A stretch of 64,000 nt of DNA, from positions 372,001 to 436,000 of the forward strand of contig NZ_WHOH01000001.1 of the NCBI RefSeq assembly GCF_009741735.1. Reading direction: 5' to 3'. This document shows positions 1-57,058 of the stretch, piece after piece. The stretch is from Lentibacillus sp. JNUCC-1. Lineage in GTDB: Bacteria > Bacillota > Bacilli > Bacillales > Amphibacillaceae. A program made the translations under genes and the position numbers. Under the pieces are notes generated by a model that saw nothing but the letters and a program-made list of their open reading frames with translations, was not told where the DNA came from and did not search any database. Position 1 is the first letter of the stretch; every line of letters begins with the position of its first letter.

Positions 1-361
1 TGGAGCGGAGGGAAGTCGACTCCTGCTGGAACAGCACGAGTCCGAAGACCCCACAGTGAGCATATTAAGGATCGTCGACTAAGACCGTCCTTTGCGGACA
101 ACGTCGACATACCCCTTGCCGGGGCAAGGAGGCGTCAGGGGATGTTCGATTAAAACCGGCGCGTCCTGCGCCAACATCGAACGACCTGCGTCCTGCAGGC
201 CCCTTGGCAAAGAAGACACTGTGAAAGTGGTTTTCTTGAACAGATGTCGCACTTGAGCTGTTATAAAGTTAAAGCGACTTCCCGGAGCGCAAATCACGGT
301 GCTCTTATATACATTGATGGGTTTTGACCTACTATGCTTTTTAGTTCGCAATTTACTTAAA
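1..361 (+). repeat. Bipartite hairpin repeat, copy A (left part cut by window edge)
   Basis: This is the right part of the repeat family seen six times here. It starts inside hairpin module 2 (the AGTCGACTCCTGC and GTCCGAAGACCCCACAG strings, as in the other copies). It ends at the terminal motif TTAGTTCGCAATTTACTTAA (341-360), the inverse of the left terminus of other copies. The module-2 loop carries an insert at about 57-205 with its own palindromes (GTCGAC, CCCCTTGCCGGGGCAAGG). A second insert at about 216-283 is shared with copies D and E. The minus-strand reading frame through this stretch is an artefact of the repeat and has no family resemblance. Confidence 0.9.
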
Positions 362-417
362 CTCTGACTAAGCTGTTTGTTGGTGATGATATGTATATCT
401 GGGTTTGAAGTGTTGGC

Positions 418-447
418 TTTACATATGGGTGTGTTCATCGCTACAAT
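418..447 (+). promoter_or_regulatory. Probable sigma-A promoter of hit
   Basis: A TTTACA -35 box (418-423) and TACAAT -10 box (442-447) are separated by 18 bases, each differing from consensus at one position. They lie 36 bases upstream of the hit start codon and outside the repeat. Prediction from sequence only. Confidence 0.5.
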
Positions 448-482
448 AGAAGCATCAAATTGTATACAAGGAGTCGATGTAA

Positions 483-908
483 ATGAGTCATGAAGATTGT
501 ATCTTTTGTAAAATCATTGATCAGGAACTGCCTTCTGCCAAGGTGTATGAAGACGAGCATGTGTATGCTTTTTTAGACCTCAGTCAGGTTACAAAGGGAC
601 ACACACTTGTTATTCCAAAGACGCATACGAAGGATATTTATAATACTTCTGACGATGTAGCTGCTGAACTTTTTGCACGTGTGCCTAAGATTGCGCGGGC
701 CATTAAAGAGACTTATAAGCCCGATGGTATCAATTTACTGAATAACAACGAAAAAGCTGCTGGACAAGCTGTATTCCATTACCACATCCATATATTGCCC
801 AGATATGGCACAGCCGATGGCTTCCAACCGAGCTGGGTTACACACGAGGATGACTATACACAACAAGACCTTCAGCAAATCGCAGCAGAAATCAACAAGC
901 ATATTTAA
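483..908 (+). CDS. hit: HIT family nucleotide-binding hydrolase (Hit)
   Basis: A 141-residue histidine-triad protein. The catalytic HxHxH motif is His99-His101-His103 in the string HYHIHILPRY, and the N-terminal CIFCKI (Cys6, Cys9) matches the zinc-binding start of bacterial Hint-like proteins. Family members hydrolyse nucleoside phosphoramidates or related dinucleotide substrates in the cytosol; the physiological substrate is unknown. The ATG is preceded by AAGGAG at good spacing. In B. subtilis hit sits beside ecsA and near trpP and prsA; here trpP follows on the same strand, so the neighbourhood is partly conserved. Confidence 0.93.
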   Translation: MSHEDCIFCKIIDQELPSAKVYEDEHVYAFLDLSQVTKGHTLVIPKTHTKDIYNTSDDVAAELFARVPKIARAIKETYKPDGINLLNNNEKAAGQAVFHYHIHILPRYGTADGFQPSWVTHEDDYTQQDLQQIAAEINKHI

Positions 909-975
909 TTCAAACTGATACTTTTTTTTATTAGAAAAGTCTGCTATAATGAAATCAGTTTCCGCAACTGACGAT

Positions 976-1033
976 GAGCGTACAGTTGGGAGATAAAATC
1001 ATTAGCCGAGCTTTAGCTTGAGCAGAGGAGAGG
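976..1033 (+). promoter_or_regulatory. TRAP-type (G/U)AG repeat leader overlapping the trpP ribosome binding site
   Basis: The trpP leader has (G/U)AG triplets beginning at 976, 990, 1003, 1008, 1014, 1020, 1025 and 1030. The last six are spaced by 2-3 bases, the spacing used by the ring-shaped tryptophan-activated RNA-binding protein TRAP (MtrB). The final triplets fall within the GAGGAGAGG ribosome binding site of trpP. B. subtilis trpP is known to be translationally repressed by TRAP in this way. The mtrB gene is not in this window, so use of the site is inferred. Confidence 0.85.
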
Positions 1034-1038
1034 TATAA

Positions 1039-1557
1039 ATGAATATTAGGATTTTGATTGTCATGTCGCTGTTGGTCAGTATGGGAGCCGTACTGCACGC
1101 CGTTGCACCGCCAATTCTGTTTGGAATGAGACCGGATATGCTTCTGGCAATGATGTTTTTGGGGATTATGATATTTCCAAAAGCAAAGTATGTGGTGCTC
1201 CTGTCTATCGTTACTGGCATTATGTCTGCTTTAACCACAACAGTGCCAGGTGGAGAAATCTCCAACTTAATTGATAAACCAATTACAGCCTTTGTGTTTT
1301 TTGGTTTGTTTTTACTGGTACGAAATAAGATTAACGGCCATATCAGTGCACCTGTTCTAACGGCTTTGGGAACCATTGTCAGCGGATCGATCTTTCTCTC
1401 AGTAGCATTATTTATTGTTGGATTGATGGAAGGCGCATTTATTCCCATGTTTGCAACTGTAGTCTTACCAGCTGCAGTGGTGAATACAATCGTAATGGCG
1501 GTCATCTATCCAGTTGTGCAAGGCATTCTGAAACGGCAGCCAATACCCGTTTCCTGA
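1039..1557 (+). CDS. trpP: Tryptophan transporter TrpP (YhaG)
   Basis: A 172-residue, very hydrophobic protein with about five predicted membrane segments. Length, location (between hit and yhaH, near prsA) and composition match Bacillus TrpP, the probable tryptophan importer. The ATG follows GAGGAGAGG at 1028-1036. Its leader carries eight (G/U)AG triplets typical of TRAP control, which supports the tryptophan assignment independently of the protein. A terminator follows at 1577-1612, so it is probably monocistronic. Confidence 0.9.
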   Translation: MNIRILIVMSLLVSMGAVLHAVAPPILFGMRPDMLLAMMFLGIMIFPKAKYVVLLSIVTGIMSALTTTVPGGEISNLIDKPITAFVFFGLFLLVRNKINGHISAPVLTALGTIVSGSIFLSVALFIVGLMEGAFIPMFATVVLPAAVVNTIVMAVIYPVVQGILKRQPIPVS

Positions 1558-1576
1558 CAGTAACAAACAATACACA

Positions 1577-1612
1577 AATCCTCTGGCACGGCTTTTGTCA
1601 GAGGATTTTTTT
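1577..1612 (+). terminator. Intrinsic terminator of trpP
   Basis: The stem ATCCTCTG / CAGAGGAT with a 13-base loop is followed directly by a run of seven T. Confidence 0.85.
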
Positions 1613-1692
1613 AACCATTTATGACAATGTTTATTGGTAGGTACTAACGAGGTACACACATATATAACCAAAATGAAGGAGTGTGCAAGAAT

Positions 1693-2061
1693 ATGGCAAA
1701 AAGCAAATCAATCTTACTGGGTTTTTTAATAGGCGGAACCGTTAGTGCTGCTGCAACACTATTAATGACCCCCTCTTCAGGAAGAGACTTGCGCATAAGA
1801 GCAAAAGAGCAAGGCACTGACCTAAAAGAGCTCATGTTAAAACTAAAAGAAGATAGCGTTCGTCTGAAACAGCAAATCTCTGACACTTCAAAAGAAGGCG
1901 TTACACTCATTAAAAATCTTACTAATGAAATGAAAGAATCCATTGAGGAATGGAAAACAGCCGTTGAACCCCATCAGGAAAATATTCAGGAATACTTAAA
2001 ACAAATTGAAGCCAGCTTAAAAGAGCTTGAAGAAAACGTCCAAAAGAAAAACGAAGCATAA
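1693..2061 (+). CDS. yhaH: YtxH-domain protein YhaH
   Basis: A 122-residue protein with one N-terminal hydrophobic segment (about residues 7-25, small-residue rich) followed by MTPSSGRDLR, a typical YtxH-domain turn, and then a long charged helical tail likely to form a coiled coil. It is probably a single-pass membrane protein with a cytosolic tail; family members in Bacillus are linked to stress and stationary phase, molecular role unknown. The ATG at 1693 was preferred over the GTG at 1681 because AAGGAG (1676-1681) would overlap the GTG. It lies between trpP and the betaine operon, as yhaH lies by trpP in B. subtilis. Confidence 0.85.
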   Translation: MAKSKSILLGFLIGGTVSAAATLLMTPSSGRDLRIRAKEQGTDLKELMLKLKEDSVRLKQQISDTSKEGVTLIKNLTNEMKESIEEWKTAVEPHQENIQEYLKQIEASLKELEENVQKKNEA

Positions 2062-2062
2062 A

Positions 2063-2090
2063 AAAACTGCCCGGTAAATCGGGCAGTTTT
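2063..2090. terminator. Bidirectional terminator between yhaH and the betaine operon
   Basis: AAAACTGCCCG / CGGGCAGTTTT around a six-base loop, with A and T runs on both sides. It serves the convergent yhaH (+) and substrate-binding protein gene (-). Confidence 0.88.
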
Positions 2091-2100
2091 CTTTATATCA

Positions 2101-3069
2101 TTATTCTGTTGGTACACCATCAAGCCATTCATCAACCAGATCAGGGTTGTTGTCAATAAATTCTTGAACAACGTCTTCTGGATCCTGGTCTTCAACATAG
2201 ACTTTAGGCATCATGCTATCGAGCATATCATACGTTTCGTCATATTGCTCGAGTACTTTGTATGCTCTCGGTGCATCTTCTTCAAGTCCACTGCGTGCTA
2301 CAGTGTAAATTTGGTCACCTTCACCGCCGTAGATTTCTTTTGGATCCTCAAGCATTTTCAGATCCATATCACCGAATGCCCAGTGTGGCTTCCACAATGG
2401 TACGATAATTGGCTTTTCATCTTTTATTGCAGACTGCAATTCAGCAAGCATAGCAGCTTCTGAACTTGTTGTCAGCTCCCATTTGTCAAGGCCATATTCT
2501 TCCAGTGCCTTTTCAGTATTCTGCATAATTCCGGCACCAGGGTCAATACCCGTAATCTTCCAATCTACTGATTCACCGAACTCTTCGTTATTCTTTAAAT
2601 CTTCCATTGTGTTGATGCCATCAACATAGCTTGGAACGACCAATGCAAGTGGTGCTTTATCAAGTACTTGGTTGACCTTTACGATGTCGCCTTCATACTT
2701 TTCCCAATAAGACTGGTGTGTTGCAGGCAGCCATGCAGATGTATGGAAATCAGCTGAACCATCAGCAACACTTGAGAACATTGGACCTGCTTCTACTTGT
2801 TTGACATCTACATTGTAGCCAACTTGTTCAAGCAGGTTTGCCAGCATGTACGTACTGAGTGTTTCTCTTGCCCAAGCAACATACGGTAATGTCAGGTCTT
2901 CCTGGCCGATGGCAAGTTCTCCATTATCATTTCCGGAATCGTTATTGTTTCCGGATGTGTCATTTGTCCCGTCTTCCTCAGCATTATTGCCACCGCAAGC
3001 TGCAAGCAGCATCGACAGCATTAAGATCAAAGCAAAAGCTGTCAGTTTAAGATTGAACTTTTTGTTCAT
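2101..3069 (-). CDS. opuAC: Glycine betaine/proline-type ABC transporter substrate-binding lipoprotein (OpuAC-like)
   Basis: A 322-residue lipoprotein. The signal peptide ends in the lipobox LLAAC with the acylated Cys at residue 25, followed by an Asn/Gly/Asp-rich linker and an OpuAC-type binding domain. It should capture glycine betaine or a related compatible solute outside the membrane and pass it to the permease at 3150-3992. It is the third gene of a minus-strand ATPase-permease-binding protein operon. An 81-base gap with a strong hairpin separates it from the permease gene, which may help differential expression. Substrate assignment is by family; proline betaine or carnitine are possible. 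Confidence 0.92.
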   Translation of the reverse strand: MNKKFNLKLTAFALILMLSMLLAACGGNNAEEDGTNDTSGNNNDSGNDNGELAIGQEDLTLPYVAWARETLSTYMLANLLEQVGYNVDVKQVEAGPMFSSVADGSADFHTSAWLPATHQSYWEKYEGDIVKVNQVLDKAPLALVVPSYVDGINTMEDLKNNEEFGESVDWKITGIDPGAGIMQNTEKALEEYGLDKWELTTSSEAAMLAELQSAIKDEKPIIVPLWKPHWAFGDMDLKMLEDPKEIYGGEGDQIYTVARSGLEEDAPRAYKVLEQYDETYDMLDSMMPKVYVEDQDPEDVVQEFIDNNPDLVDEWLDGVPTE

Positions 3070-3108
3070 AAACTAATTACCCCCTAAAATTTAATATATA
3101 TGCAATCC

Positions 3109-3138
3109 CTATGTGCCGGCTATAGATCCGGCACATAG
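3109..3138 (-). other. Intercistronic stem-loop in the betaine operon
   Basis: A perfect 11-bp stem CTATGTGCCGG / CCGGCACATAG with an 8-base loop lies between the permease and binding-protein genes. No T-run follows in the transcription direction, so it does not look like a terminator. Such hairpins are known to stabilise downstream mRNA of binding-protein genes; that role is inferred here. Confidence 0.7.
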
Positions 3139-3149
3139 AGTCATGCGCA

Positions 3150-6105: not shown

Positions 6106-6118
6106 CCTACAGAAAATG

Positions 6119-8345: not shown

Positions 8346-8942
8346 TTTAAGTAAACTGCGAACTAACTAGTTAGATCTAATTTGGGATTTTATGACTGCC
8401 AATGGCAACCGCTCGGGGAAAACACTCCGCGTCCAGTGGGCGCTGATGAGCCTCCTCGCGCTGCGCGCTGTGGGGTCTCATCTAGGCTTTTGCTCCCACG
8501 GGAGTCTCCGTGTTTTCCCCGAGCTGAGTGAGAAGTGTCGACCTTCCTTCTCGCTTTCGTGGGTAGAACGGTTGAAAGTGTGAATCAGCATATAGGGATT
8601 GAAAAACATTAACGGAAATAAATCTCATAGTAAGCCAAGATTATGACTAATAAGGAACCTCACCTGTCAGTGGGCGGCCCAAGAAGTGTTCACGTTCATA
8701 CCTGATTTCTTAAGTAGAACCGTCCAAGTCACTGAAAGAACATAAAGTGATTGGAGCGGAGGGAAGTCGACTCCTGCGGGAACAGCACGAGTCCGAAGAC
8801 CCCGCAGAGGTGGTTTTCCTCGAGGAGGCTAAGGCCGTGCCCGCGGAAAGCGACTTCCCGCAGCGCAAATCACGATTCTCTCATTGTGGTGGTTAGTTGC
8901 CAGAAGCAGTCATTCAAGTTTTCATTAGTTCGCAGTTTGTGT
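8346..8942 (+). repeat. Bipartite hairpin repeat, copy B (long form, 597 bp)
   Basis: Complete copy. The left end has ACTGCGAACTAA (core of 8346-8366) and the right end TTAGTTCGCAGTTT (8925-8938) in inverse orientation. Module 1 (8411-8524, 114 bp) folds on itself through GCTCGGGGAAAACAC / GTGTTTTCCCCGAGC. Module 2 (8747-8873) is closed by GTGATT / AATCAC and GGAAGTCG / CGACTTCC. The spacer of about 220 bases is the long type also found in copy E. It lies between the convergent genes prsA and yhaL. Confidence 0.93.
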
Positions 8943-15607: not shown

Positions 15608-15670
15608 GGAGCTGGACGTGGCCTTTGGAAATATTTGTTAACAGTTCGAAATTTTATAATTTCCTAAACA
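15608..15670. other. Gap between palindrome and intron copy 1
   Basis: No gene or clear signal seen; it holds the 3' exon side of the intron insertion. Confidence 0.5.
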
Positions 15671-17551
15671 ATCGAGTAGGAGGGGGTGACTAACCCCCGA
15701 CCTCTCACACCACCGTACGTACGGTTCCGTATACGGCGGTTTCATTTAAGTCCAACGCAACGTTTGATATCGTTTAAGCAGACTCTTAAGCCCTTGGATT
15801 GACCAGTATTGGTCACCAAGGGCTTTATGCAAGATGGGGCTTTTGGCAATCCGCCAATAAGCCTTTCTTGTGTTGGCCCATTCCCACGCTTTCTCTTTCT
15901 TCACGCCGTATTTCACAAGATTCTTGTACTTCGTTTTGACTAGCTTCCATTCTTTCCACCTAATCATTCGCAGTCTTCTTCGAATCCAGGCATCCAGTTT
16001 GTTGAATGTGGTTGGCGTTTCTGCCAGTTGATAATAACCAAGCCAGCCCACCAAATATCGATTGAGTTTCTCGATTCTATCTGTCATATTCATGGATTTT
16101 CTTCTGGATGTAAGAGCCCGGACACGTTGTTTGAAGCGTTTGATACTCTCTTTGGGTATCCGGATTTTCGGGTGATCTTTGTGAAACGTGAAGGAAAACC
16201 CCAGAAATTTACGTCTCCATGGGCGATCCACCGCACTTTTCTCTACGTTGACCTTCAGCTTGAGTTTACTTTCAATAAATTGTGTAATATTTTCCATTAC
16301 ACGCAACCCTGCACGTCTTGATTTGACGTATATATTACAGTCGTCCGCATAGCGGACGAAACGGAGTCCTCTTTTCTCCAATTCCTTGTCCAACTCATCT
16401 AAGACGATATTGGAAAGTAGTGGACTGAGCGGACCACCTTGCGGAGCTCCTTCTGTATTAGGACGCACTAAACCCTCTTCCATAATACCTGCCTGCAGGT
16501 ATCTTCGAATCAGCTTCAATAGATGTGGGTCCTCAATACGTTTGTTCAATGTGCGCATCAAACGATCGTGGTTGACTTTATCGAAGAATTTCTCTAGGTC
16601 CATGTCAACGACCCAACGGTAGCCTTCTTTCATGTATTGCCTTGCTTCTCTTACGGCATCATGTCCTCGCTTGTTTGGTCTAAATCCATAACTGTGTTTC
16701 GAGAACGTTGAGTCGTATTCTTCAGTGAGAACTTGTGCAATTGCTTGTTGGATGAATCTATCCAACACGGTTGGGATGCCTAACTTCCTCTTCCCGCCGT
16801 TTGGTTTCGGGATTTCGACACGACGGACAGGTTGAGGACGATAAGACCCCTCTTGGATTTCTTTTCGCAGGCTTGTCCAATGTTTCATGACATGCGCTCG
16901 TAGGTTTTGTACGGGCATTCCATCTACACCATGACTGCCTTTATTACGTTCAACGCGTTTTAGTGCGTTTATTAAGTTTTCCCGTGATAGAATTCGATCC
17001 AACATGATATCCAACTCCTGCGTGAATTGTTCTCTCCTCTTGTGTGGCAATCACTTTCAGCCCTTCTAATGTCCCCCACGGAATTCACCGTTTCCTCCAT
17101 TAGGAAGGATATATGTTTCTGCTTCATCAAGTGTTGCGTACGCGAAGCGACAATTCTCCTTAAATGATTCAGCCCTTCATGGGAACTCTAGATATCCCCA
17201 TTACTATGGCGTCTGCTGACTTCTGACAGTTCAGTGAGTACTTACGTACTCAGTTACACAATGGGTTGTGCATTTCTGCCAGACCTCCCAGGGTAAGCAC
17301 ACACCCTTCCTCCCCATGTCCCCGCTTCATCTACTTTATGCACCCTTTGGCAGTATGGGTTTTGGCTTGTTGTGCAGCCTCGTCCAAGTACATCTAGCCT
17401 TATGAAGTTCGTGTTCCTCGGGGCGGAGATTTGCCGCAGACTTCCTTCAGATTCCAGATTTCTCTGGACACCCTTGTCCTTGGCTAATCGCTACTACTGC
17501 CTTCACGATTCGGGACTTTAACCCTATAGAGTGTGCGCATGCCTGGCACAC
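15671..17551 (-). mobile_element. Group IIC intron, copy 1 (1881 bp)
   Basis: Boundaries come from comparison with copy 2. The RNA begins GTGTGCCAGGC (17551 downward) and ends CTACTCGAT (15671). Domain V is the hairpin ACCGCCGTATACGG / CCGTACGTACGGTGGT near 15702-15735, and domain VI with GGGGGTTAGTCACCCCC follows. It encodes a GsI-IIC-like reverse transcriptase. Directly upstream lies the yhaR terminator hairpin with its T-run, the typical target of group IIC introns. The 5' border is uncertain by two bases (repeated GT). Confidence 0.93.
15746..17005 (-). CDS. ltrA: Group II intron reverse transcriptase/maturase
   Basis: A 419-residue reverse transcriptase. RT block 4 includes DLEKFFDKVNHD, block 5 is the catalytic FVRYADD, and the C-terminal maturase (X) domain shows WIRRRLRMIRWKEWK and ANTRKAYWRI. 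There is no HNH endonuclease domain, as in group IIC enzymes such as GsI-IIC, which it resembles in length and sequence. It should bind the intron RNA, help splicing and reverse-transcribe during retrohoming. The ATG at 17005 (MLDRILSREN) has AGGAG upstream; a TTG start at 17050 is less likely. It differs from copy 2 by four residues. Confidence 0.95.
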   Translation of the reverse strand: MLDRILSRENLINALKRVERNKGSHGVDGMPVQNLRAHVMKHWTSLRKEIQEGSYRPQPVRRVEIPKPNGGKRKLGIPTVLDRFIQQAIAQVLTEEYDSTFSKHSYGFRPNKRGHDAVREARQYMKEGYRWVVDMDLEKFFDKVNHDRLMRTLNKRIEDPHLLKLIRRYLQAGIMEEGLVRPNTEGAPQGGPLSPLLSNIVLDELDKELEKRGLRFVRYADDCNIYVKSRRAGLRVMENITQFIESKLKLKVNVEKSAVDRPWRRKFLGFSFTFHKDHPKIRIPKESIKRFKQRVRALTSRRKSMNMTDRIEKLNRYLVGWLGYYQLAETPTTFNKLDAWIRRRLRMIRWKEWKLVKTKYKNLVKYGVKKEKAWEWANTRKAYWRIAKSPILHKALGDQYWSIQGLKSLLKRYQTLRWT

Positions 17552-17553
17552 AC

Positions 17554-17594
17554 AAAAAAGAACCCTGTGCTTCTTCCAAGGCACAGGGTTCTTT
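17554..17594 (-). terminator. Terminator of yhaR and insertion target of intron copy 1
   Basis: A 14-bp perfect stem AAAGAACCCTGTGC / GCACAGGGTTCTTT with a 10-base loop and a run of six T on the minus strand. The intron starts right after the T-run. Confidence 0.92.
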
Positions 17595-25359: not shown

Positions 25360-25389
25360 GTGTTTGATCGCATATGTATTCATGCCTCA

Positions 25390-25484
25390 ATTTAGACGCC
25401 ACTTCCCTACGCCAGCGTTAACTGGATCAGGTTCCAAGGGTCAGAGTCTCCTCTTCTCAGCTTGCGCTCCCCCAGTGATCGGTT
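25390..25484 (-). ncRNA. TPP (THI-box) riboswitch aptamer
   Basis: On the minus strand the conserved THI-box parts appear in order: GGGGGAGC, GCTGAGAAG, GACCCTTGGAACCTGATC, CAGTTAACGCTGGCGTAGGG. These form the P2-P5 core that binds thiamine pyrophosphate. A terminator follows at 25333-25359, then the SDR gene. Under high thiamine the downstream gene would be switched off. Confidence 0.96.
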
Positions 25485-27689: not shown

Positions 27690-28115
27690 TTTAAGTAAAC
27701 TGCGAACTAAAAAGCATAGTAGGTCAAAACCCATCAATGTATATAAGAGCACCGTGATTTGCGCTCCAGGAAGTCGCTTTCCGCGGGCACGGCCTCAGCC
27801 TCCTCGCTCGCAAAGACCGCTCACTGTGGGGTCTTCGGACTCGTGCTGTTCCCGCAGGAGTCGACTTCCCCTCCGCTCCAATCACTTTATGTTAATCAGT
27901 GCTTGAGCTGTTTGCTCACAAAAGCAAAAGAAATGATAAACACTCCTTACCAAGCTCGGGGAAAACACGGAGACTCCTGTGGGAGGAAAAGCCTCGGTGA
28001 GACCCCACAGCGCGCAGCGCGAGGAGGCTCAGCAGCGCCCACTGGACGCGGAGTGTTTTCCCCGAGCGGTTGCCAGAAGCAGTCATTCAAGTTTTCATTA
28101 GTTCGCAGTTTGTGT
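27690..28115 (-). repeat. Bipartite hairpin repeat, copy C (short form, 426 bp, inverted)
   Basis: Complete copy in the opposite orientation to B, D and F: module 2 (about 27760-27888) comes first, then module 1 (27954-28067). Ends are ACTGCGAACTAA (27699-27710) and TTAGTTCGCAGTTT (28098-28111). The spacer is short (about 65 bases). Module 1 keeps the closing stem GCTCGGGGAAAACAC / GTGTTTTCCCCGAGC. It lies between ctaM and the second intron. Confidence 0.93.
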
Positions 28116-28144: not shown

Positions 28145-28188
28145 AAAAGGTGGGGCATCATGTTGGTTCGCATGGTGCGCCACCTTTT
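28145..28188. terminator. Hairpin with T-runs on both strands; target of intron copy 2
   Basis: AAAAGGTGGGGCATCATG pairs with CATGGTGCGCCACCTTTT (two mismatches) around an 8-base loop. T-runs follow in both directions. The intron begins right after it on the plus strand. On the minus strand it would have terminated the antiporter gene before the intron came between them. Confidence 0.8.
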
Positions 28189-28190
28189 GT

Positions 28191-30071
28191 GTGTGCCAGG
28201 CATGCACACACTCTATAGGGTTAAAGTCCCGAATCGTGAAGGCAGTAGTAGCGATTAGCCAAGGACAAGGGTGTCCAGAGAAATCTGGAATCTGAAGGAA
28301 GTCTGCGGCAAATCTCCGCCCCGAGGAACACGAACTTCATAAGGCTAGATGTACTTGGACGAGGCTGCGCAACAAGCCAAAACCCATACTGCCAAAGGGT
28401 GCATAAAGTAGATGAAGCGGGGACATGGGGAGGAAGGGTGTGTGCTTACCCTGGGAGGTCTGGCAGAAATGCACAACCCATTGTGTAACTGAGTACGTAA
28501 GTACTCACTGAACTGTCAGAAGTCAGCAGACGCCATAGTAATGGGGATATCTAGAGTTCCCATGAAGGGCTGAATCATTTAAGGAGAATTGTCGCTTCGC
28601 GTACGCAACACTTGATGAAGCAGAAACATATATCCTTCCTAATGGAGGAAACGGTGAATTCCGTGGGGGACATTAGAAGGGCTGAAAGTGATTGCCACAC
28701 AAGAGGAGAGAACAATTCACGCAGGAGTTGGATATCATGTTGGATCGAATTCTATCACGGGAAAACTTAATAAACGCACTAAAACGCGTTGAACGCAATA
28801 AAGGCAGTCATGGTGTAGATGGAATGCCCGTACAAAACCTACGAGCGCATGTCATGAAACATTGGATAAGCCTGCGAAAAGAAATCCAAGAGGGGTCTTA
28901 TCGTCCTCAACCTGTCCGTCGTGTCGAAATCCCGAAACCAAACGGCGGGAAGAGGAAGTTAGGCATCCCAACCGTGTTGGATAGATTCATCCAACAAGCA
29001 ATTGCACAAGTTCTCACTGAAGAATACGACTCAACGTTCTCGAAACACAGTTATGGATTTAGACCAAACAAGCGAGGACATGATGCCGTAAGAGAAGCAA
29101 GGCAATACATGAAAGAAGGCTACCGTTGGGTCGTTGACATGGACCTAGAGAAATTCTTCGATAAAGTCAACCACGATCGTTTGATGCGCACATTGAACAA
29201 ACGTATTGAGGACCCACATCTATTGAAGCTGATTCGAAGATACCTGCAGGCAGGTATTATGGAAGAGGGTTTAGTGCGTCCTAATACAGAAGGAGCTCCG
29301 CAAGGTGGTCCGCTCAGTCCACTACTTTCCAATATCGTCTTAGATGAGTTGGACAAGGAATTGGAGAAAAGAGGACTCCGTTTCGTCCGCTATGCGGACG
29401 ACTGTAATATATACGTCAAATCAAGACGTGCAGGGTTGCGTGTAATGGAAAATATTACACAATTTATTGAAAATAAACTCAAGCTGAAGGTCAACGTAGA
29501 GAAAAGTGCGGTGGATCGCCCATGGAGACGTAAATTTCTGGGGTTTTCCTTCACGTTTCACAAAGATCACCCGAAAATCCGGATACCCAAAGAGAGTATC
29601 AAACGCTTCAAACAACGTGTCCGGGCTCTTACATCCAGAAGAAAATCCATGAATATGAAAGATAGAATCGAGAAACTCAATCGATATTTGGTGGGCTGGC
29701 TTGGTTATTATCAACTGGCAGAAACGCCAACCACATTCAACAAACTGGATGCCTGGATTCGAAGAAGACTGCGAATGATTAGGTGGAAAGAATGGAAGCT
29801 AGTCAAAACGAAGTACAAGAATCTTGTGAAATACGGCGTGAAGAAAGAGAAAGCGTGGGAATGGGCCAACACAAGAAAGGCTTATTGGCGGATTGCCAAA
29901 AGCCCTATCTTGCATAAAGCCCTTGGTGACCAATACTGGTCAACCCAAGGGCTTAAGAGTCTGCTTAAACGATATCAAACGTTGCGTTGGACTTAAATGA
30001 AACCGCCGTATACGGAACCGTACGTACGGTGGTGTGAGAGGTCGGGGGTTAATCACCCCCTCCTACTCGAT
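28191..30071 (+). mobile_element. Group IIC intron, copy 2 (1881 bp)
   Basis: Begins GTGTGCCAGGC behind a terminator-like hairpin and ends CTACTCGAT two bases before the stop codon of the antiporter gene (complement strand). Same length as copy 1 and nearly identical sequence. Domain V lies at about 30000-30034 and domain VI (GGGGGTTAATCACCCCC) at about 30045-30062. It is oriented antisense to the antiporter gene. Confidence 0.94.
28737..29996 (+). CDS. ltrA: Group II intron reverse transcriptase/maturase
   Basis: A 419-residue GsI-IIC-like reverse transcriptase, with YADD (FVRYADDCNIYVKS) and the thumb/maturase domain intact. Compared with copy 1 it differs at four positions (Ile for Thr after KHW, Asn for Ser in FIENKL, Lys for Thr in MNMKDR, Thr for Ile in YWSTQG). 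All catalytic strings are unchanged, so both copies look functional. The ATG at 28737 follows AGGAG at 9 bases. Confidence 0.95.
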   Translation: MLDRILSRENLINALKRVERNKGSHGVDGMPVQNLRAHVMKHWISLRKEIQEGSYRPQPVRRVEIPKPNGGKRKLGIPTVLDRFIQQAIAQVLTEEYDSTFSKHSYGFRPNKRGHDAVREARQYMKEGYRWVVDMDLEKFFDKVNHDRLMRTLNKRIEDPHLLKLIRRYLQAGIMEEGLVRPNTEGAPQGGPLSPLLSNIVLDELDKELEKRGLRFVRYADDCNIYVKSRRAGLRVMENITQFIENKLKLKVNVEKSAVDRPWRRKFLGFSFTFHKDHPKIRIPKESIKRFKQRVRALTSRRKSMNMKDRIEKLNRYLVGWLGYYQLAETPTTFNKLDAWIRRRLRMIRWKEWKLVKTKYKNLVKYGVKKEKAWEWANTRKAYWRIAKSPILHKALGDQYWSTQGLKSLLKRYQTLRWT

Positions 30072-30073
30072 GC

Positions 30074-31873
30074 TTAATGAGATTGTGTTTCTGCTAGGAC
30101 AACGAGCTGATCTCCTTCTTCTAGAGTGATCTTTTTACTTTCCGTGACAAAGTTAAGCTTTTCATTATTTCGTTTAATAAACAACGGTATGGATTTTTTT
30201 CTGAAAGCATCTGTATTTGTTGGGTCCCCTTCAGCAATGGCATGTGTTACAAGGGAATAGGTGGTATTGATTTTTTTATTTAATTCAGGAAACACGGCTG
30301 CTTCTCCAAATAACAAATGAGCTTTGACCGCATAAGGCAGTTCACCCTGGTTCACCTGAGCATGCTGGGAACTAGGCAGACTAAATGTATGATTAAACCC
30401 GAATTCAGGTGCAAACGTCTGAGAAACCAGAGCATTATACGAAGCATCTGCTGTCATAACCAAGATGGTGTCATATGGCGTCAAATCTGCTTCATATTGA
30501 GCATGTTCCGATAAAATCTCTCCCTTATATGTTTCAAGACCGGCATTGATTGCAGGACGTAAGCGGCCCTCTGAAGAATCAGCAAGCAACACGGGATGAC
30601 CCAATTCTTTAATCTTTTGACCTAATGCAATCGAAAAGCTGCTGGCCCCGACAATTAAAACGCCGGGGGGCTGCGTATTAGCCAGGTTTAATTTTTTTGC
30701 GAGAGGGCCTAGAGTAAACCCATGCGCACATACAGTAATAAACACAAGCGCAAACGTGAGCGCCATAAGCAGTGAAGCCTCTTCATAGCCATCATTAATT
30801 AATATGGAAGCAAAATAACCAGCTACAGTCAGGGCTACAATTCCTCGTGGAGCAATCCAGCCAATAAGGGTTTTCTCCTGTTTGGTCAGTTCTGTCCCGA
30901 TTGTCGGCAGCCAGATGGACAGAGGTCGAACGATAAATAACATAGCCAATACAAACCCGATAATCGGGAGTGTAAATACTTCTGCAATCGTTTCACGTGA
31001 GAGTGAGGCAGTTAATAATATAAATACGGTGGACGTCAGTAAAACTGAAATGTTTTCAACGAAATGGCTGACATTGCCAATCGATGAGACGTAACGCTTC
31101 ATTCTAGCCATGGTGAGTCCCATAACGGTCACCGTTAACATGCCAGTTTCATGCATAATAATTTCGGCGCCAGTAAACGACAACAATACTGCTGAAAGAA
31201 TGATGGGCGATTTTAAGTACTCAGGAAAGAATCCTTTATTAGCCAAAATGCTGATTCCCACGCCTGCAATAAATCCAAGGAGGGCCGCTAGAAATGCCGC
31301 ACCAATGAATTGCAGCAAATAAGTCGCTGTTAGTGTTTCATGGGTCAGCACTTTAATCACTTCATAAGCAAATAACGCCAGCAGCGGGCCAGCAGGGTCT
31401 ACAATAATTCCTTCCCACTTTAAGACAGCAGCAGTTCTTTGTTTAAGTTTCGCATTTCTGAGAAGTGGAATAATAACTGTAGGACCAGTCACAATGAACA
31501 ATCCGCCTATTATAAAAGAAACTTCCAAGGTTAAGCCGGCAATATAATGGGCGGCAAGTGACCCCAGAATCCAGGACATAAACGCACCAAAGGTAATGAT
31601 TCGAAATATTGATTTGGAAACGCCTTTGATTTCCCGTATATCCAGACTCGAACTTCCTTCAAATAAAATAATGGCTACAGCTAGTGATATCATTGGGCTA
31701 TACAGGTCGCCCAAGGCTGTTTGCGGATTAATTAAACCTAGAATCGGGCCAATTAATAAACCACAGACCGACATTATGACGATTGAGGGCCATTGAATCC
31801 GCCATGCCAGCCACTGTGAGAATATGCCAAGCGCTAGAATTACAACGATACTTATGAGGGCTGCTTCTTCCAT
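30074..31873 (-). CDS. CPA1-type cation/proton antiporter with C-terminal NAD-binding (RCK-like) domain
   Basis: A 599-residue protein. Residues 1 to about 395 form a 12-13 segment Na+(K+)/H+ antiporter core with the functional string EGIIVDPAGPLLALFAYE and RGIVALTVAGYFA. The rest carries a TrkA-N-like Rossmann domain (GVLIVGASSFSIALGQKIKE, then LLADSSEGRL) and a TrkA-C-like end (FRKKSIPLFIKRN ... EEGDQLVVLAE). It should exchange monovalent cations for protons, useful in salty or alkaline media, with nucleotide control through the C-terminal part. The start is preceded by AAGGTG. The second intron lies two bases beyond the stop. Confidence 0.9.
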   Translation of the reverse strand: MEEAALISIVVILALGIFSQWLAWRIQWPSIVIMSVCGLLIGPILGLINPQTALGDLYSPMISLAVAIILFEGSSSLDIREIKGVSKSIFRIITFGAFMSWILGSLAAHYIAGLTLEVSFIIGGLFIVTGPTVIIPLLRNAKLKQRTAAVLKWEGIIVDPAGPLLALFAYEVIKVLTHETLTATYLLQFIGAAFLAALLGFIAGVGISILANKGFFPEYLKSPIILSAVLLSFTGAEIIMHETGMLTVTVMGLTMARMKRYVSSIGNVSHFVENISVLLTSTVFILLTASLSRETIAEVFTLPIIGFVLAMLFIVRPLSIWLPTIGTELTKQEKTLIGWIAPRGIVALTVAGYFASILINDGYEEASLLMALTFALVFITVCAHGFTLGPLAKKLNLANTQPPGVLIVGASSFSIALGQKIKELGHPVLLADSSEGRLRPAINAGLETYKGEILSEHAQYEADLTPYDTILVMTADASYNALVSQTFAPEFGFNHTFSLPSSQHAQVNQGELPYAVKAHLLFGEAAVFPELNKKINTTYSLVTHAIAEGDPTNTDAFRKKSIPLFIKRNNEKLNFVTESKKITLEEGDQLVVLAETQSH

Positions 31874-36883: not shown

Positions 36884-37430
36884 TTTAAGTAAACTGCGAA
36901 CTAACTAGACAGATCTAATGAATGCCACTGGCAACCGCTCGGGGAAAACACTCCGCGTCCAGTGGGCGCTGATGAGCCTCCTCGCGCTGCGCGCTGTGGG
37001 GTCTCATCTAGGCTTTTGCTCCCACGGGAGTCTCCGTGTTTTCCCCGAGCTAGATATGAGAGGTTATTCTCTAACTCTTATGTGAGTAAAACCGTCCATG
37101 CCACTTAATAACATAGAGTGATTGGAGCGGAGGGAAGTCGACTCCTGCGGGAACAGCACGAGTCTGAAGACCCCACAGCGAGTACATTAAGGAGGGTCGA
37201 CTAAGACCGCCCTTTGCGGGCAACGTCGACATACCCCTTGCCGGGGCAAAGAGGCTGAGGCCGTGCCAGTGGCTAGAAGACACTGTGAAAGTGGGTTTCT
37301 TGAACAGATGTCGCACTTGAGCTGTGATAAAGTTAAAGCGACTTCCTGCATCGGAAATCACGACGCTCTCATTGTAGTGGTTAGTTTCCAGAAGCAGTCA
37401 TTCAAGTTTTCATTAGTTCGCAGGTTGTGT
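36884..37430 (+). repeat. Bipartite hairpin repeat, copy D (547 bp)
   Basis: Complete copy in the orientation of B. Ends: ACTGCGAACTAA (36893-36904) and TTAGTTCGCAGG (37413-37424). Module 1 (about 36937-37050) looks base-for-base identical to that of copy B. The spacer is short. Module 2 carries the two inserts also seen in copy A: one with GTCGACTAAGACCG and CCCCTTGCCGGGGCAA in its loop, one with AGAAGACACTGTGAAAGTG in its 3' arm. Confidence 0.93.
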
Positions 37431-44719: not shown

Positions 44720-45356
44720 ACACAAACTACGAACCAGAGAAAACTTGGCTATACTTAAGATGAGAGGGTCGTGATTTCCGCTGCGGGAAGTCGCTTTAAC
44801 TTTATCACAGCTCAAGTGCAACATCTGTTCAAGAAGGACACTTTCACAGTGTCTTCTAGCCGCGGGCACGGCCTCAGCCTCCCCGCTCGCAAAAACCGCT
44901 CGCTGTGGGGTCTTCAGACTCGTGCTGTTCCCGCAGAAGTTGACTTCCCTCCGCTCCAATCACTATATATTAAAGTGGTGTTTGGACGGTTCTGCTCAAA
45001 ATTCAAGTAAGAACGTAAACACTTCTTTAGCAGTTAGTACTAGGTCCACTTATGCATATTAATTTCGATTTATGCGTAACCACGGCTTGCTTATGAGCAT
45101 TTATTTCCGTTTATAAGGGATCCCAGCTCCTATATGCGCATTCACACCTCCAACCATTCTGCTTACGCAAGAGAAAGAAGGTGAGCATTCCACACCTAGC
45201 TCGGGGGAAACACGGAGACTCCTGCGGGATGCAAAGCCTCGATGAGACCCCGGAGGTCGGCAGACCGAGGAGGCTCAGCAGCGCCCGCGGAAAGCGCAGT
45301 GTTTCCCCCGAGCGGCTGCATGGGGCAGTCATAAGTTAGTTCGCAGTTTACTTAAA
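44720..45356 (-). repeat. Bipartite hairpin repeat, copy E (long form, 637 bp, inverted)
   Basis: Inverted like copy C. Ends: ACACAAACTACGAACC (44720-44735) and TTAGTTCGCAGTTTACTT (45336-45353). Module 2 holds the AGAAGACACTGTGAAAGTG insert but not the loop insert. The long spacer (about 250 bases) is homologous to that of copy B. Module 1 closes with GCTCGGGGGAAACAC / GTGTTTCCCCCGAGC, where one A-T pair of the other copies is replaced by a G-C pair. It lies between the convergent msmX and SASP genes. Confidence 0.93.
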
Positions 45357-51180: not shown

Positions 51181-51212
51181 AAAAAGCGTCTTGCCAGGAT
51201 GCAGCAAGACGT
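51181..51212 (-). terminator. Terminator of the IDEAL gene
   Basis: GCGTCTTGC / GCAAGACGT, 9-base loop, five T on the minus strand. Confidence 0.78.
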
Positions 51213-51221
51213 CCAAAAGCA

Positions 51222-51455: not shown

Positions 51456-51563
51456 GGCACACACCCCTTTGGTCCCTTTTTACCATTATGCTTAATGTTT
51501 AGAATAATTGCAAGCATAAAAAGCAAAAATGTGTGTTTTACCTAGAAAAAACTTTGCAATTTG

Positions 51564-52784: not shown

Positions 52785-52995
52785 ATGCCATGCATCCTTT
52801 ACTTTAAACTATGATTACTATGCACACTCGCGCTCGTTTTATGCTCGCTGGAAAGACCGAATTTTTTCCAGTGGTGATTAAGTTTGACTCAGACCAAGAA
52901 GTGTAACTCAGGGCTTCAATGTTTCTCTCGACCCACCATGAAACGGTCTGATACACTATATGATGCACTTAGGAATTGAGATGGAGGTCACATTT

Positions 52996-53877: not shown

Positions 53878-53910
53878 AGCGAAGGCAGTATCTGCCTTCG
53901 CTCTTATTCT
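53877..53910. terminator. Terminator of the CDF gene
   Basis: A perfect 12-bp stem GAGCGAAGGCAG / CTGCCTTCGCTC with a 3-base loop and T-rich tail. Confidence 0.87.
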
Positions 53911-53916
53911 TCGTAT

Positions 53917-54456
53917 TTACACCGGCTGATTCAGCATATGAAGCAATTCATCCAGTGTATCCCAGCCGTATGCTGTTTCTTGATATGTGCCTTCTCCAAT
54001 TGTTGTTGCTTCTTTTCCAACAGGCTCTGCCTTGTATCGCTCATAAAACCGGCTGGATGGATTCTGTGTTAAGATCCAGACGAGCAAAGAACTAAAGCCA
54101 AACGCTTTCATTTCTGTGGCAAAAGCTTTCAACAAGCGAGTTCCGAGTCCCTGTTTCTGATAAGCATCAAGTAAATAAATCGTATAGATTTCACAATCGT
54201 GTTTAAATCGTTTTGTACGTTCAGGCCCCCCAGAAACGAATCCTACAATCTTTCCATCCTGTTCGATCACTAATGTGCACTGATTGGGCTTCTGTACCCG
54301 AAGCACTGTTTCCCATAAAGTTTTCCGGTTTTCATATGTTGTATTCGATAAGTCCTGTTCATCTATAAGCTCTTGATAGGTATTTTTCCAACTCCGGATA
54401 TGAACATCAGCAATCGCTGCAGCGTCTTCATCCCGGGCTTTGCGTATGGTATACAT
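53917..54456 (-). CDS. GNAT family N-acetyltransferase
   Basis: A 179-residue protein of GCN5-like fold. The acetyl-CoA-binding motif A is IYTIYLLDAYQKQGLGTRLL, with the QxxGxG/A pattern, and the C-terminal SSRFYERYKAEPVG is typical. The acceptor substrate is unknown. AGGAGG is 7 bases from the ATG at 54456. It is 24 bases after azlD on the same strand, so it may be the third gene of the azlC-azlD operon. Confidence 0.87.
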   Translation of the reverse strand: MYTIRKARDEDAAAIADVHIRSWKNTYQELIDEQDLSNTTYENRKTLWETVLRVQKPNQCTLVIEQDGKIVGFVSGGPERTKRFKHDCEIYTIYLLDAYQKQGLGTRLLKAFATEMKAFGFSSLLVWILTQNPSSRFYERYKAEPVGKEATTIGEGTYQETAYGWDTLDELLHMLNQPV

Positions 54457-54480
54457 CAAACGTCCTCCTGACAGACTAAT

Positions 54481-54774
54481 TTACATGGACAAAAGAAAAA
54501 CGGTCGCAATGGCTCCAAAAACAACAATGATCACATTTAGACCAAGCAAGGCGAGACCAACAGCAACAAGCCCTCCAAGCAGCCCTATGGATGGATTATC
54601 GGTATTCACAGACATAATTCCCGGAAAAATCAGAGCACCAAGCGCTGCATAAGGAACCGCATTCAACCATCTGTTGACCCAATCGCGAAACTCTAGTTTT
54701 TCAACGATAATGGCAGGAATCATCCTGGGAATCATTGTCACAAGTGCCATACCTAAAATGATGATAAAAATCAT
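54481..54774 (-). CDS. azlD: Branched-chain amino acid exporter subunit AzlD
   Basis: A 97-residue protein with three or four membrane segments (MALVTMIPRMIPAIIVEKLE, LNAVPYAALGALIFPG). This is the small subunit of the AzlCD branched-chain amino acid exporter; B. subtilis AzlCD exports branched-chain analogues such as 4-azaleucine. Its ATG overlaps the azlC stop (ATGA), so the two are coupled. Confidence 0.9.
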   Translation of the reverse strand: MIFIIILGMALVTMIPRMIPAIIVEKLEFRDWVNRWLNAVPYAALGALIFPGIMSVNTDNPSIGLLGGLVAVGLALLGLNVIIVVFGAIATVFLLSM

Positions 54775-55496
54775 GATTGATCCTCCTTCAGCAGAAACAC
54801 ACCAGAAAAACCGCTTATAACCGTAGCCAGGACAATCGACCATCCTTCGCTTAAATACAAGCCAAATAAATAGTTCAGAAGCATTGCAAAAAGCGCAATC
54901 AGGCCAACTTTAAGTTCTTTTTTTACTGAAGGGATAAGGAGCCCTATGAACATGGCGTACAAAGCAATTCCCATACTCTCACTTAAACGCGGCGGTATCA
55001 CTTCACCGAGGAGTCCCCCCAGCAGCGATCCAATTACCCATGAAGAATAGGCCGTTAAAATAAGTGCTGCATAAAAATAGCGACCATAAGCCTTTTTGCC
55101 TTCGTCTTTATGTATGGCTGAGACGGCAAAGGTTTCATCCGTCAATCCTAATGATAAAGGAACTTTCCAAGAACGTCCAATATCTCGGGCATGATTGGAG
55201 TAGGATAGGCTCATGACGAAATGTCGAAAATTCAGCACAAGTGTTGCGATAATGATTTCCACTGCACCTGCACCAATCGCAATCATATTCGCCGCCATAA
55301 ATTGACTTGCCCCTGCAAATACAAGTGCACTCATAGACGTTAATTCAAGAAGTGACAACCCTGCCTGTTTAGCCAGAACCCCATATGTTATGGCAATTGG
55401 CAAATATCCAAGCATGATCGGAAACCCAACCCAAAATCCCCTTTTTATCATATCTTTCGCAGTTGTACCAGACGTTCCAGCCATCTGTCTCTCCAT
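54771..55496 (-). CDS. azlC: Branched-chain amino acid exporter subunit AzlC
   Basis: A 241-residue membrane protein of the AzlC family with about five to eight hydrophobic segments. VGFPIMLGYLPIAITYGVLA, MSALVFAGASQFMAANM and LVLNFRHFVMSLSYSNH are diagnostic. It forms the exporter with AzlD. The ATG at 55496 has AAGGGGG 5 bases ahead; 55502 is too close. Confidence 0.92.
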   Translation of the reverse strand: MERQMAGTSGTTAKDMIKRGFWVGFPIMLGYLPIAITYGVLAKQAGLSLLELTSMSALVFAGASQFMAANMIAIGAGAVEIIIATLVLNFRHFVMSLSYSNHARDIGRSWKVPLSLGLTDETFAVSAIHKDEGKKAYGRYFYAALILTAYSSWVIGSLLGGLLGEVIPPRLSESMGIALYAMFIGLLIPSVKKELKVGLIALFAMLLNYLFGLYLSEGWSIVLATVISGFSGVFLLKEDQS

Positions 55497-55652
55497 CCTC
55501 ATCCCCCTTGCTGCAATAAATACAAACCATATTATTTAGAAATATTACACCATTATATCCGAAACCAGAAAAAAGATAAACCACCAAATCCAAAGTGTGG
55601 GGTAGTGAAATTTAAAACCGAATTGCCAACGGCGATCTATGGGTTCTATAAA

Positions 55653-55683
55653 TAACCCCGCAATTGTATCTATTGCGGGGTTA
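55653..55683 (-). terminator. Terminator of the methionine aminopeptidase gene
   Basis: TAACCCCGCAAT / ATTGCGGGGTTA, 12-bp stem with a 7-base loop. Confidence 0.8.
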
Positions 55684-55692
55684 AAGGAAGTT

Positions 55693-56445
55693 TTATTGAT
55701 CTTGGTCGGTCGTAATGATGGGCTCACCTTTTGTAACAATGAGGGTATGTTCGTATTGGGCTGAACGTCCCTTATCGATTGTTCGGGCCGTCCAATTGTT
55801 ATCATCCATCTTGCTTTTCCAATCACCTTCATTAATCATGGGCTCAATTGTAATCGCCATGCCCTCTTTTAATCTGAGTCCTTTATTTGGGAGTCCAAAA
55901 TGTGGAATGTGCGGCTCTTCGTGAATGGTTGGTCCGATCCCATGACCGGTAAAGTCACGCACCACTGAAAAGCCTTCTCCTTCAGCGTATGCTTGAATGG
56001 CATGGCCGATATCTCCAATTCGATTCCCGGCCTTGGCCTGCTCAATGCCTTTATAAAGTGCAGTCTTTGTTACGTCCATTAACTGTTTTCCTTTTTCATC
56101 AACATTCCCAACTGCGTATGTCCAGGCTGAATCCGCCAAGCCGCCGTTAAGATTGACAACCATGTCTATGGTTACTATATCACCGTCTTTAAGTTGGGTA
56201 TCTCTCGGGAATCCGTGACATATTTCATCATTGATGGAAGCACATGTGGCATATGGATAGTCGCTGTAGCCTTTTTGCTCAGGGGTTGCCCCGTGTTCGG
56301 CCAAGTACTTTTCAACAAACTGCTCAATCTCCATTGTTGTAATGCCTGGTTTGATCATTTTTTTTATCTCTTTATGGCAGGCAACAAGAAGGTCACCTGC
56401 CTTCTGCATTTTTTCAATTTCCCGTTTGCTTTTTCTTGTTATCAT
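55693..56445 (-). CDS. map: Methionine aminopeptidase, type I (MapB/YflG-like)
   Basis: A 250-residue enzyme. The metal ligands of type I MetAP are visible: Asp in VTIDMVVNLNGGLADSAWTY (both Asp), His in DFTGHGIGPTIHEEPHIPHF, Glu in TIEPMINEG and Glu in QYEHTLIV. It removes the first Met from new proteins. It is not in the ribosomal-protein cluster where the essential map usually sits, so it is probably a second copy such as B. subtilis MapB (YflG). AGGAAGAAG precedes the ATG at 56445. Confidence 0.93.
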   Translation of the reverse strand: MITRKSKREIEKMQKAGDLLVACHKEIKKMIKPGITTMEIEQFVEKYLAEHGATPEQKGYSDYPYATCASINDEICHGFPRDTQLKDGDIVTIDMVVNLNGGLADSAWTYAVGNVDEKGKQLMDVTKTALYKGIEQAKAGNRIGDIGHAIQAYAEGEGFSVVRDFTGHGIGPTIHEEPHIPHFGLPNKGLRLKEGMAITIEPMINEGDWKSKMDDNNWTARTIDKGRSAQYEHTLIVTKGEPIITTDQDQ

Positions 56446-56608
56446 TGATGTCTTCTTCCTTTCATAAAAATTAATCACAACGTACGAATATCCCTGTTAA
56501 AGTGTACCACAAATCACAAGAATCATCATCACCACTGAATTTAATCTCTATGAACAACATGCACGTTGATAAGTTTCGGTTCATGTACATTTTATGTCAT
56601 TGAGACAG

Positions 56609-57058
56609 TTTAAGTAGACTGCGAACTAACTGGGTAGCTCAAACTAAGCATTTTATGACTGCTCCTGGCAACCGCTCGGGGAAAACACTCCGCATTCCGT
56701 GGGCGCTGCTGAGCCTCCTCGCGCTACCGCGCTCCGGGGTCTCACCGAGGCTTGTCCTCCCACTGGAGTCTCCGTGTATTCCCGAGCTTTGTTAGAGCTC
56801 ATAAATGTCCCGGATGAATATGTGTGCTGGGACGTCCAAGCCACTGACTAACATAGAGTGATTGGAGCGGAGGGAAGTCGACTCCTGCGGGAACAGCACG
56901 AGTCCGAAGACCCCACAGCGAGCGGTTTTTGCGAGCGAGGAGGCTGAGGCCGTGCCCGCGGAAAGCGACTTCCCGGAGCGCAAATCACGATACTGTCATT
57001 GTGGTGGTTTGTTGCCAGAAGCAGTTACTCCAAGTTTTCGCTAGTTCGGAGTTTGTGT
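56609..57058 (+). repeat. Bipartite hairpin repeat, copy F (short form, 450 bp)
   Basis: Complete copy oriented like B and D. Ends: ACTGCGAACTAA (56618-56629) and CTAGTTCGGAGTTTGTGT (57041-57058). Module 1 is the most divergent (stem closes with GTGTATTCCCGAGC). Module 2 is a clean form without inserts, with CGAGCGGTTTTTGCGAGC in its loop. It lies between the yueD-like gene and map. Confidence 0.92.

Follow-up and report, generated by a model that had tools for sequence, protein, structure and literature searches.

Dispersed elements carrying paired structured modules are probably old insertions of a non-autonomous DNA transposon

What kind of element recurs six times within a 64,000-nucleotide stretch of bacterial DNA, here called the window? 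The preliminary description of this stretch left several answers open, which included a MITE-like mobile unit, a structured RNA and a nucleoid or terminator role. All six copies that it reported are present (Table 1). Copy 1 is truncated by the start of the window, and its remaining half lies upstream in the genome, from G000:C1:371792. Each element consists of two ends that enclose module M1, a spacer and module M2, in this order. The terminal core that the copies were said to share matches exactly at most ends, and three ends deviate, with one change in the right end of copy 1, two changes in the right end of copy 6 and three changes in the left end of copy 5, where it reads CTACGAACCAG. The two internal modules and their mutual resemblance were recovered by R1, a covariance model built from 40 module copies of class Bacilli, which detects two modules in each complete element. 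Scanning the window with R1 yielded 11 modules (worst E 2.1e-7), one of which, M2 of copy 6, also belongs to the R1 training set. M1 and M2 form a single structured family with a module length of 115-135 bp, and they are arranged head to head with sense strands outward in 5/5 complete window copies. The elements are modular: at fixed positions, M2 often holds nested pieces, namely Rfam Bacillaceae-1 and a piece X of 73 bp.

Table 1. Positions of the six copies in the window and of the pieces nested within them.
Feature	Position	Strand	Parts
Copy 1, right part only	1..361	+	M2 fragment 1-61; nested pieces; M2 3' piece 271-298; end type LT2 301-361
Copy 1 M2, nested Bacillaceae-1 hairpin pair	64..125	+	Rfam RF01690 above gathering score; second one 134-199
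Copy 1 M2, nested piece X	211..276	+	
Copy 2, complete	8346..8942	+	LT 8346-8412; M1 8414-8525 (sense -); M2 8746-8874 (sense +); RT 8878-8942
Copy 3, complete	27690..28115	-	LT2 27690-27750; M2 27753-27886 (sense -); M1 27953-28064 (sense +); RT 28069-28115
Copy 4, complete	36884..37430	+	LT 36884-36919; M1 36940-37051 (sense -); M2 from 37117 (sense +); RT 37366-37430
Copy 4 M2, nested pieces			Bacillaceae-1 37186-37247; X 37268-37340
Copy 5, complete	44720..45356	-	RT 44720-44747; M2 44770-44964 (sense -); M1 45198-45310 (sense +); LT 45334-45356
Copy 5 M2, nested piece X	44792-44861		
Copy 6, complete, without nested pieces	56609..57058	+	LT 56609-56675; M1 56677-56788 (sense -); M2 56857-56989 (sense +); RT 56993-57058

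We evaluated the fold of the module in the alignment of 40 copies from class Bacilli. Compensatory, two-sided changes were observed at 24 of the 30 predicted pairs, 95.8% of cells were paired, and covariation reached 0.411, as compared with 0.156 for shuffled and at most 0.071 for slid alignments, which indicates that the structure of the module is conserved. The module is present in 132 of 146 genomes of the family and in 41 of 299 sampled genomes of the class. A divergent pair of modules occupies 20 of 29 loci within the family, with a single module in the other nine. In other families, solitary and tandem modules occur without these ends, which suggests that the module is not bound to one transposon. 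When an M2 copy (L095) was compared with plasmids and phages, 6 of 72,556 plasmid records and 0 of 50,697 phage records matched.

Two catalogued RNA families touch these elements. One is tsr24 (RF02577), a small RNA of S. aureus, which shares with the module conserved blocks in the same order and on the same strand (model positions 130-203) and differs from it in approximately 130 extra upstream positions and a shorter apical part. R1 recovered 15/15 tested tsr24 loci that score above the cut-off, one per genome, and the tsr24 model detected the module below its gathering cut-off (30.6 bits vs 50 for module copy L113). Over 398 genomes of the class, tsr24 matches were above the cut-off in 15 and at E<=0.001 in 54, and the two matches in the window's genome were both below it. 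By gathering score, the module copies tested fall outside tsr24; the matches in both directions indicate a common structured core. The other family, Bacillaceae-1 (RF01690), has three matches above the cut-off in the window, all nested within these elements. It differs from the element in being a small insert in M2, which in relatives also occurs outside any module. We rejected the idea that Bacillaceae-1 forms the element's core, as a module overlaps it in just 7 of the 20 loci scanned with R1 (L232, L233, L237, L239, L246, L247 and L250), a set that includes one locus from the window's own genome. By eye, module-like flanks surround Bacillaceae-1 at L249, and further loci are found in other settings, such as next to 5S rRNA at L236 and L248.

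The mobile form of the element is apparent in relatives. There it has two distinct ends, A and B, of approximately 56-62 bp that both begin GGCT, and all 18 element pairs consist of one A and one B end. Target duplications of 8 bp were perfect in 7/18 pairs and matched at 7/8 or better in 12/18, as compared with 0.3% and 2.9%, respectively, of 306 mispaired controls. We also compared orthologous sites at one of four prepared insertions. The sites in G135 and G092 that correspond to the L181 insertion in G138 lack any module, and their flanks and junction have diverged; G038 has an end-like remnant there, and G128 has a decayed copy in opposite orientation. The paired ends and target duplications support the MITE-like option, by descent, and the orthologous sites that lack a module may represent empty sites. 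The conserved structure of the modules supports a second of the options left open. The elements are short, lack a transposase and have terminal inverted repeats (18 pairs in relatives and, for the inner part of the ends, 59 pairs in the window's genome), as is typical of MITEs, and the accompanying target-site duplication is seen in relatives and not in the window's genome. The preliminary description would have given up a single element if other copies showed no common ends, no empty sites and no conserved structure, and that combination did not occur.

In the window's genome, the outer ends and target duplications have decayed. Three scans for target duplications in this genome found nothing above control: 8-bp flanks matched at 7/8 or better in 1/59 pairs, as compared with 0.85% of mispaired flanks, shared flank words showed no excess, and the maximum of one of these scans (z of 3.6) is approximately the expectation from thousands of overlapping tests. 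Interiors, in contrast, can be closely alike. The copies at C1:1986127 and C1:2030031 share an interior of 429 bp at 100% identity, with identities of 0.39 and 0.32 in the outer 41 bases. Among 170 length-matched pairs, 29 have interiors that are at least 93% identical, with mean identities outside of 0.31 and 0.30, which are the same as those of the 57 pairs with interiors below 85% (0.32 and 0.33). Identity of interiors thus reaches 100% although the flanks are unrelated, and resident copies therefore appear to exchange sequence with one another.

We searched for an autonomous partner with these ends and found none among the ISL3 copies examined in the window's genome (G000) and in G128, or in the relatives G066, which has many TIR matches and no ISL3 match, and G138, which has an ISL3 fragment only. 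ISL3-type insertion sequences and their MITEs resemble the element in GGCT-starting ends and 8-bp duplications: the ISL3 copies of G128 have one GCTTCC and one GGCTAT end, and 5/5 are flanked by such duplications. In contrast to these insertion sequences, the element has no transposase gene, and its ends agree with those of the ISL3 copies in G000 and G128 in the first bases only, which sets it apart from MITEs that share the ends of an autonomous ISL3. The ISL3 genes examined in the window's genome and in relatives were rejected as drivers, as they lack the element's ends. We also rejected the contents of long end pairs. Those opened contained IS110, an element with an rve/HTH_21 match that we take to be of IS3 type, a DDE transposase (presumably IS1182-like) together with a group II intron, and group II introns; these are nested and of different families, which suggests that none resembles the driver.

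To place the copies in the genome, we counted end motifs with at most one mismatch, which gave 149 matches genome-wide vs 8 for a reversed control pattern, and we collected 59 two-ended copies in 291 kb examined of the 3.69-Mb genome. The density of about one copy per 10 kb that was first proposed applies locally, but genome-wide the 149 ends correspond to approximately 75 copies, or one per 50 kb. Convergent genes had been described at three of the five complete copies, which is correct by the ORFs when the group II intron next to copy 3 is disregarded. With a crude ORF caller, the neighbours of the 59 copies were convergent at 12, tandem at 35 and divergent at 8, with 4 unscored. The 59 gaps between genes in the window include 10 convergent, 39 tandem and 10 divergent gaps, and the 39 gaps of at least 50 bases include 3, 28 and 8, respectively. 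The convergent share of copies is therefore close to that of all gaps and above that of gaps of at least 50 bases (12/55 scored vs 3/39), which makes a modest preference for convergent genes possible. Over the genome as a whole, any link between the element and convergent genes is at best weak.

These comparisons bear on an explanation that we consider unlikely, in which the module works at the DNA level or as a structure at mRNA 3' ends, in the manner of REP/BIME repeats, with a role in the nucleoid, in supercoiling or as a terminator hairpin, and as a landing pad for mobile elements. REP/BIME repeats are dispersed, structured and intergenic, and they are targets of IS110-family elements such as IS621. 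In the window's genome, the GACTCCT/G.GGG motif that is conserved in M2 is likewise the site of an IS110 element and of a derivative with an internal deletion. A similar insert lies at the corresponding motif of M1, and a group II intron breaks M1 a few bases or less from that motif. Furthermore, the region of copy 4 has four terminator-like sites (shuffle mean 0.7), two of which are within the element, and convergent neighbours exceed those of the longer gaps. However, the region of copy 6 has no terminator-like site, the excess largely disappears against all gaps (10/59), and RNA explains a structure with compensatory changes equally well. The modules also differ from REP/BIME repeats in being longer and in lying within a transposon whose long ends are accompanied by 8-bp duplications. 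We find no clear support for a role at convergent genes or in termination.

Slightly less unlikely is a reading in which the sense strand of the module gives rise to a functional small RNA, or else to a 3'-UTR or an antisense RNA, that is kept by selection, with the transposon as a mere vehicle. Strong covariation and the kinship to tsr24 in both directions argue for such an RNA, as does the ratio of G-T to A-C cells at paired columns (29 vs 13), which is expected for sense-strand RNA, although the cells depend on one another and G-U pairs are favoured by the folding program itself. Conversely, neither promoter-like sites nor central divergent promoters were found in the two regions scanned, those of copies 4 and 6, copies occur in all gene orientations, and the counts of ends and the first-look counts of modules differ widely among genomes, as in mobile DNA. 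The exchange between resident copies could also be site-specific, with the 14-mer AAACTGCGAACTAA, which is conserved in both ends, as a putative recombinase site and interiors swapped as cassettes between fixed sites. Within the ends, conservation is highest in the 14-mer, and the identical interiors of C1:1986127 and C1:2030031 end near it, but ordinary gene conversion gives the same prediction. Moreover, the exact 14-mer occurs in 28/146 family genomes vs 132/146 for the module, and G043, the sample's second genome from this genus, has modules without the 14-mer. We consider cassette exchange very improbable.

Taken together, we conclude that the copies probably stem from a MITE, a non-autonomous DNA transposon, of approximately 400-650 bp that inserted long ago. 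A transposase of ISL3-like specificity would have bound the paired ends and moved the element into AT-rich DNA, at some sites, as judged by eye, directly after a terminator. Its cargo is the head-to-head pair of the conserved structured module, which occurs elsewhere in class Bacilli as well. In the window's genome, the family may have stopped transposing so long ago that its outer ends and duplications have since decayed, recombination among resident copies would keep the interiors alike, and the module may persist because of a structure formed in RNA or single-stranded DNA. More tentatively, we can entertain a single RNA-like module family, with tsr24 as a member, that extends from Oceanobacillus-type bacteria to the genomes bearing tsr24 and has repeatedly come to lie in GGCT-ended MITEs at tens of copies per genome; in some genomes, where the transposon is worn and exchange keeps the modules uniform, it would amount to a dispersed, concertedly evolving family of RNA genes.

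Among the open-access matches listed, the module and the element are undescribed beyond fragments (tsr24 and Bacillaceae-1), and neither the table rows of PMC2864571 nor a passage of PMC13340242 describes them. The finding would tie these two catalogued RNA families to mobile DNA, and it would provide a series that leads from fresh insertions in Lentibacillus to the worn but homogenised copies of the window's genome. It would also open the choice between RNA genes and selfish DNA, as the nature of such modules, to a direct test in cultured bacteria.

Each of the six copies that the preliminary description had located in the window was confirmed at its position. When the modules of copies 2 and 6 were used for mapping, a single layout emerged, in which an end is followed by module M1 (112 bp), a spacer, module M2 (133 bp) and a second end; in every copy where both modules were mapped, the order M1-M2 was the same. 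The outer ends fall into three types (LT, LT2 and RT). Two inserts can interrupt M2, each at its own fixed position: Bacillaceae-1 (RF01690), for which the window contains three matches above cut-off, and X, a piece of 73 bp. Across the genome (3.69 Mb, three contigs), the end motif occurred 76 + 73 times with at most one mismatch, versus 5 + 3 times for the reversed pattern, and DNA searches with 40 candidates scored in each gave at least 85 and at least 67 matches. Using a pairing rule that required ends with at most three mismatches, 330-1000 bp apart, with a module between them, we identified 59 paired-end copies in the 291 kb fetched of this genome.

A structured RNA was among the possibilities raised in the preliminary description, and a covariation check disclosed conserved structure in the modules. 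Aligning 40 M2-type copies, drawn from many families, yielded a 30-pair consensus in which 24 pairs show compensatory changes and 95.8% of cells are paired. Its covariation score was 0.411, versus 0.156 (sd 0.009) for shuffled and at most 0.071 for slid versions. Because the consensus structure came from the very alignment on which it was scored, it has an advantage over slid versions, and the two-sided changes carry more weight as evidence. The covariance model built from this alignment, R1, detects M1 as well as M2. It found 11 modules in the window, where each of the five complete elements has a minus-strand module followed by a plus-strand module, and 122 matches in 75 loci of relatives, many of which include training rows. 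Among 29 loci of the family (L092-L120), 20 contained the divergent pair and nine a single module, and other families contained solitary and tandem modules. At L226 and L227, in genomes outside the family, three modules follow one another in tandem in the same direction, spaced about 200 bp apart. Counting the window's own genome, 132 of the 146 genomes of the family and 41 of the 299 of the class had M2 matches. Among the matches listed, the hosts named for an exact core were Oceanobacillus, Virgibacillus, Lentibacillus, Paucisalibacillus, Ornithinibacillus, Aquibacillus, Gracilibacillus, Halobacillus, Pseudalkalibacillus, Pullulanibacillus, Cerasibacillus and Candidatus Avamphibacillus.

Two genomes of the same family, G138 and G066, carry the same M1-M2 unit between long ends of two kinds, A and B, with the element boundary placed at GGCT from a reading of the flanks. 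A script that compared two end consensus sequences with 30 loci (from G138 and G066, and one from G132) returned 18 end pairs once duplicates were removed, each with one A and one B end, and no pair in L184, L189, L196, L197 and L200; because L192 has two alternative left ends, only one of which can be right, these pairs represent 17 elements. The 8-bp flanks were identical in 7 of 18 pairs and matched at seven or more bases in 12, versus 0.3% and 2.9% of 306 mispaired ends. Target-site duplications, sought on the MITE-like reading in the preliminary description, are thus seen in relatives, but none was detectable in scans of the copies in the window's genome. Sites lacking the element were likewise recovered in part. 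The joined flanks of the insertion at L181 were searched against 12 genomes of that genus, and the alignments of four loci were inspected: G092 and G135 have a terminator hairpin and then the next gene with no module, G038 retains a remnant that resembles an end, and in G128 the site holds a decayed copy in the opposite orientation. The model found modules in 2 of 11 loci corresponding to this site (L265 and L272).

In the window's genome, conservation of the ends begins at about position -14 and continues inwards; their outer parts are recognisable in single copies only. Interior identity was at least 93% in 29 of 170 length-matched pairs and reached 100% over 429 bp in the best pair; a copy on contig 3 shares 99.3% identity with the window copy at 8346. 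Flank similarity in the pairs at or above 93% did not exceed that in pairs below 85%. Positions -12 to -5 remain conserved across all ends, which suggests that both partners are long-standing residents, and we infer that the near-identical interiors reflect exchange between resident copies.

A transposase with ISL3-like habits would move the MITE in trans. However, G066 has no ISL3 gene, G138 has only a fragment, and the ends of the ISL3 copies examined agree with those of the element in their first bases only, which argues against a full ISL3 assignment.

The modules also relate to tsr24 (RF02577), a small RNA of S. aureus. At an E-value threshold, the Rfam model matched the module in 3 of 7 loci, although the module of L113 scored 30.6 bits, under the gathering score of 50. 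Among 398 class genomes, tsr24 was above cut-off in 15, which from the name of the RNA family are presumably staphylococci, and at E<=0.001 in 54; many weaker matches are limited to about model positions 123-216, and others span the model. Two matches lie in the window's genome, one at C3:270510 and the other covering M2 in the copy at C1:1388523. R1, whose training set contained none of them, recovered all 15 above-cut-off loci given (L378-L392, one per genome; E 6e-16 to 4e-5). By eye, some solitary modules and tsr24 loci (L206, L209, L379, L382 and L384) have GGCTGGGACATAA-like sequences at one or both flanks. Such flanks at several tsr24 loci suggest a second GGCT-ended carrier, which may be a further MITE family that carries this cargo.

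This relation to tsr24 and the covariation slightly favour a role of the modules as RNA, as does an excess of G-T over A-C cells (29 versus 13, binomial p 0.02, with cells that are not independent). A role as DNA or terminator is suggested by IS110 and its deleted derivatives, which sit at the conserved GACTCCT/G.GGG motif of the modules, by group II introns located in M1, and by two terminator-like sites within copy 4, although copy 6 has none. Convergent neighbours may point the same way, with 12 of 55 scored copies versus 3 of 39 window gaps of at least 50 bases; against window gaps of any length, the comparison is with 10 of 59.

Several other features lie in the copies or elsewhere in the genome (see table). 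The deleted IS110 derivative lacks a transposase but retains the two ends of the full-length IS110 found in L031 (97% over 250 bp and 75% over 88 bp). Its three copies, which are 99.8-100% identical, all occupy one conserved motif of M2, and the corresponding motif of M1 holds a similar insert. The two group II introns in the window are 99% alike, inversely oriented and 10.6 kb apart, and the second begins 70 bp beyond the edge of copy 3, close to a hairpin that by eye resembles a terminator. Bacillaceae-1 is present in 61 of 80 family genomes, with up to at least 55 matches per genome. Its sites (L231-L250) lie inside modules and, by eye, next to 5S rRNA and at other places, many of them with what by eye is a GG/CCYGAG-like junction, and Bacillaceae-1 itself resembles a very small mobile unit of two hairpins.

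Coordinates of inserts in module motifs and of further features in the window (C1 and C3, contigs of the window's genome)
Feature	Locus	Sequence	Position	Strand
Deleted IS110 derivative	L035	C1	1220101-1220495	
Deleted IS110 derivative	L041/L072	C3	506718-507112	
Deleted IS110 derivative	L078	C3	914384-914778	
Similar insert	L034	C1	367182-367579	
Group II intron		window	15658-17557	
Group II intron		window	28185-30084	
TPP riboswitch		window	25387-25483	minus

A MITE, a small structured RNA and an IS110 target are known kinds when taken singly, and the open-access literature searched held no description of their combination or of the module family. Taken together, the best supported conclusion is that the element is a MITE whose cargo is two divergently oriented structured modules and which has become worn out and homogenised in the genome of Lentibacillus sp. 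JNUCC-1.
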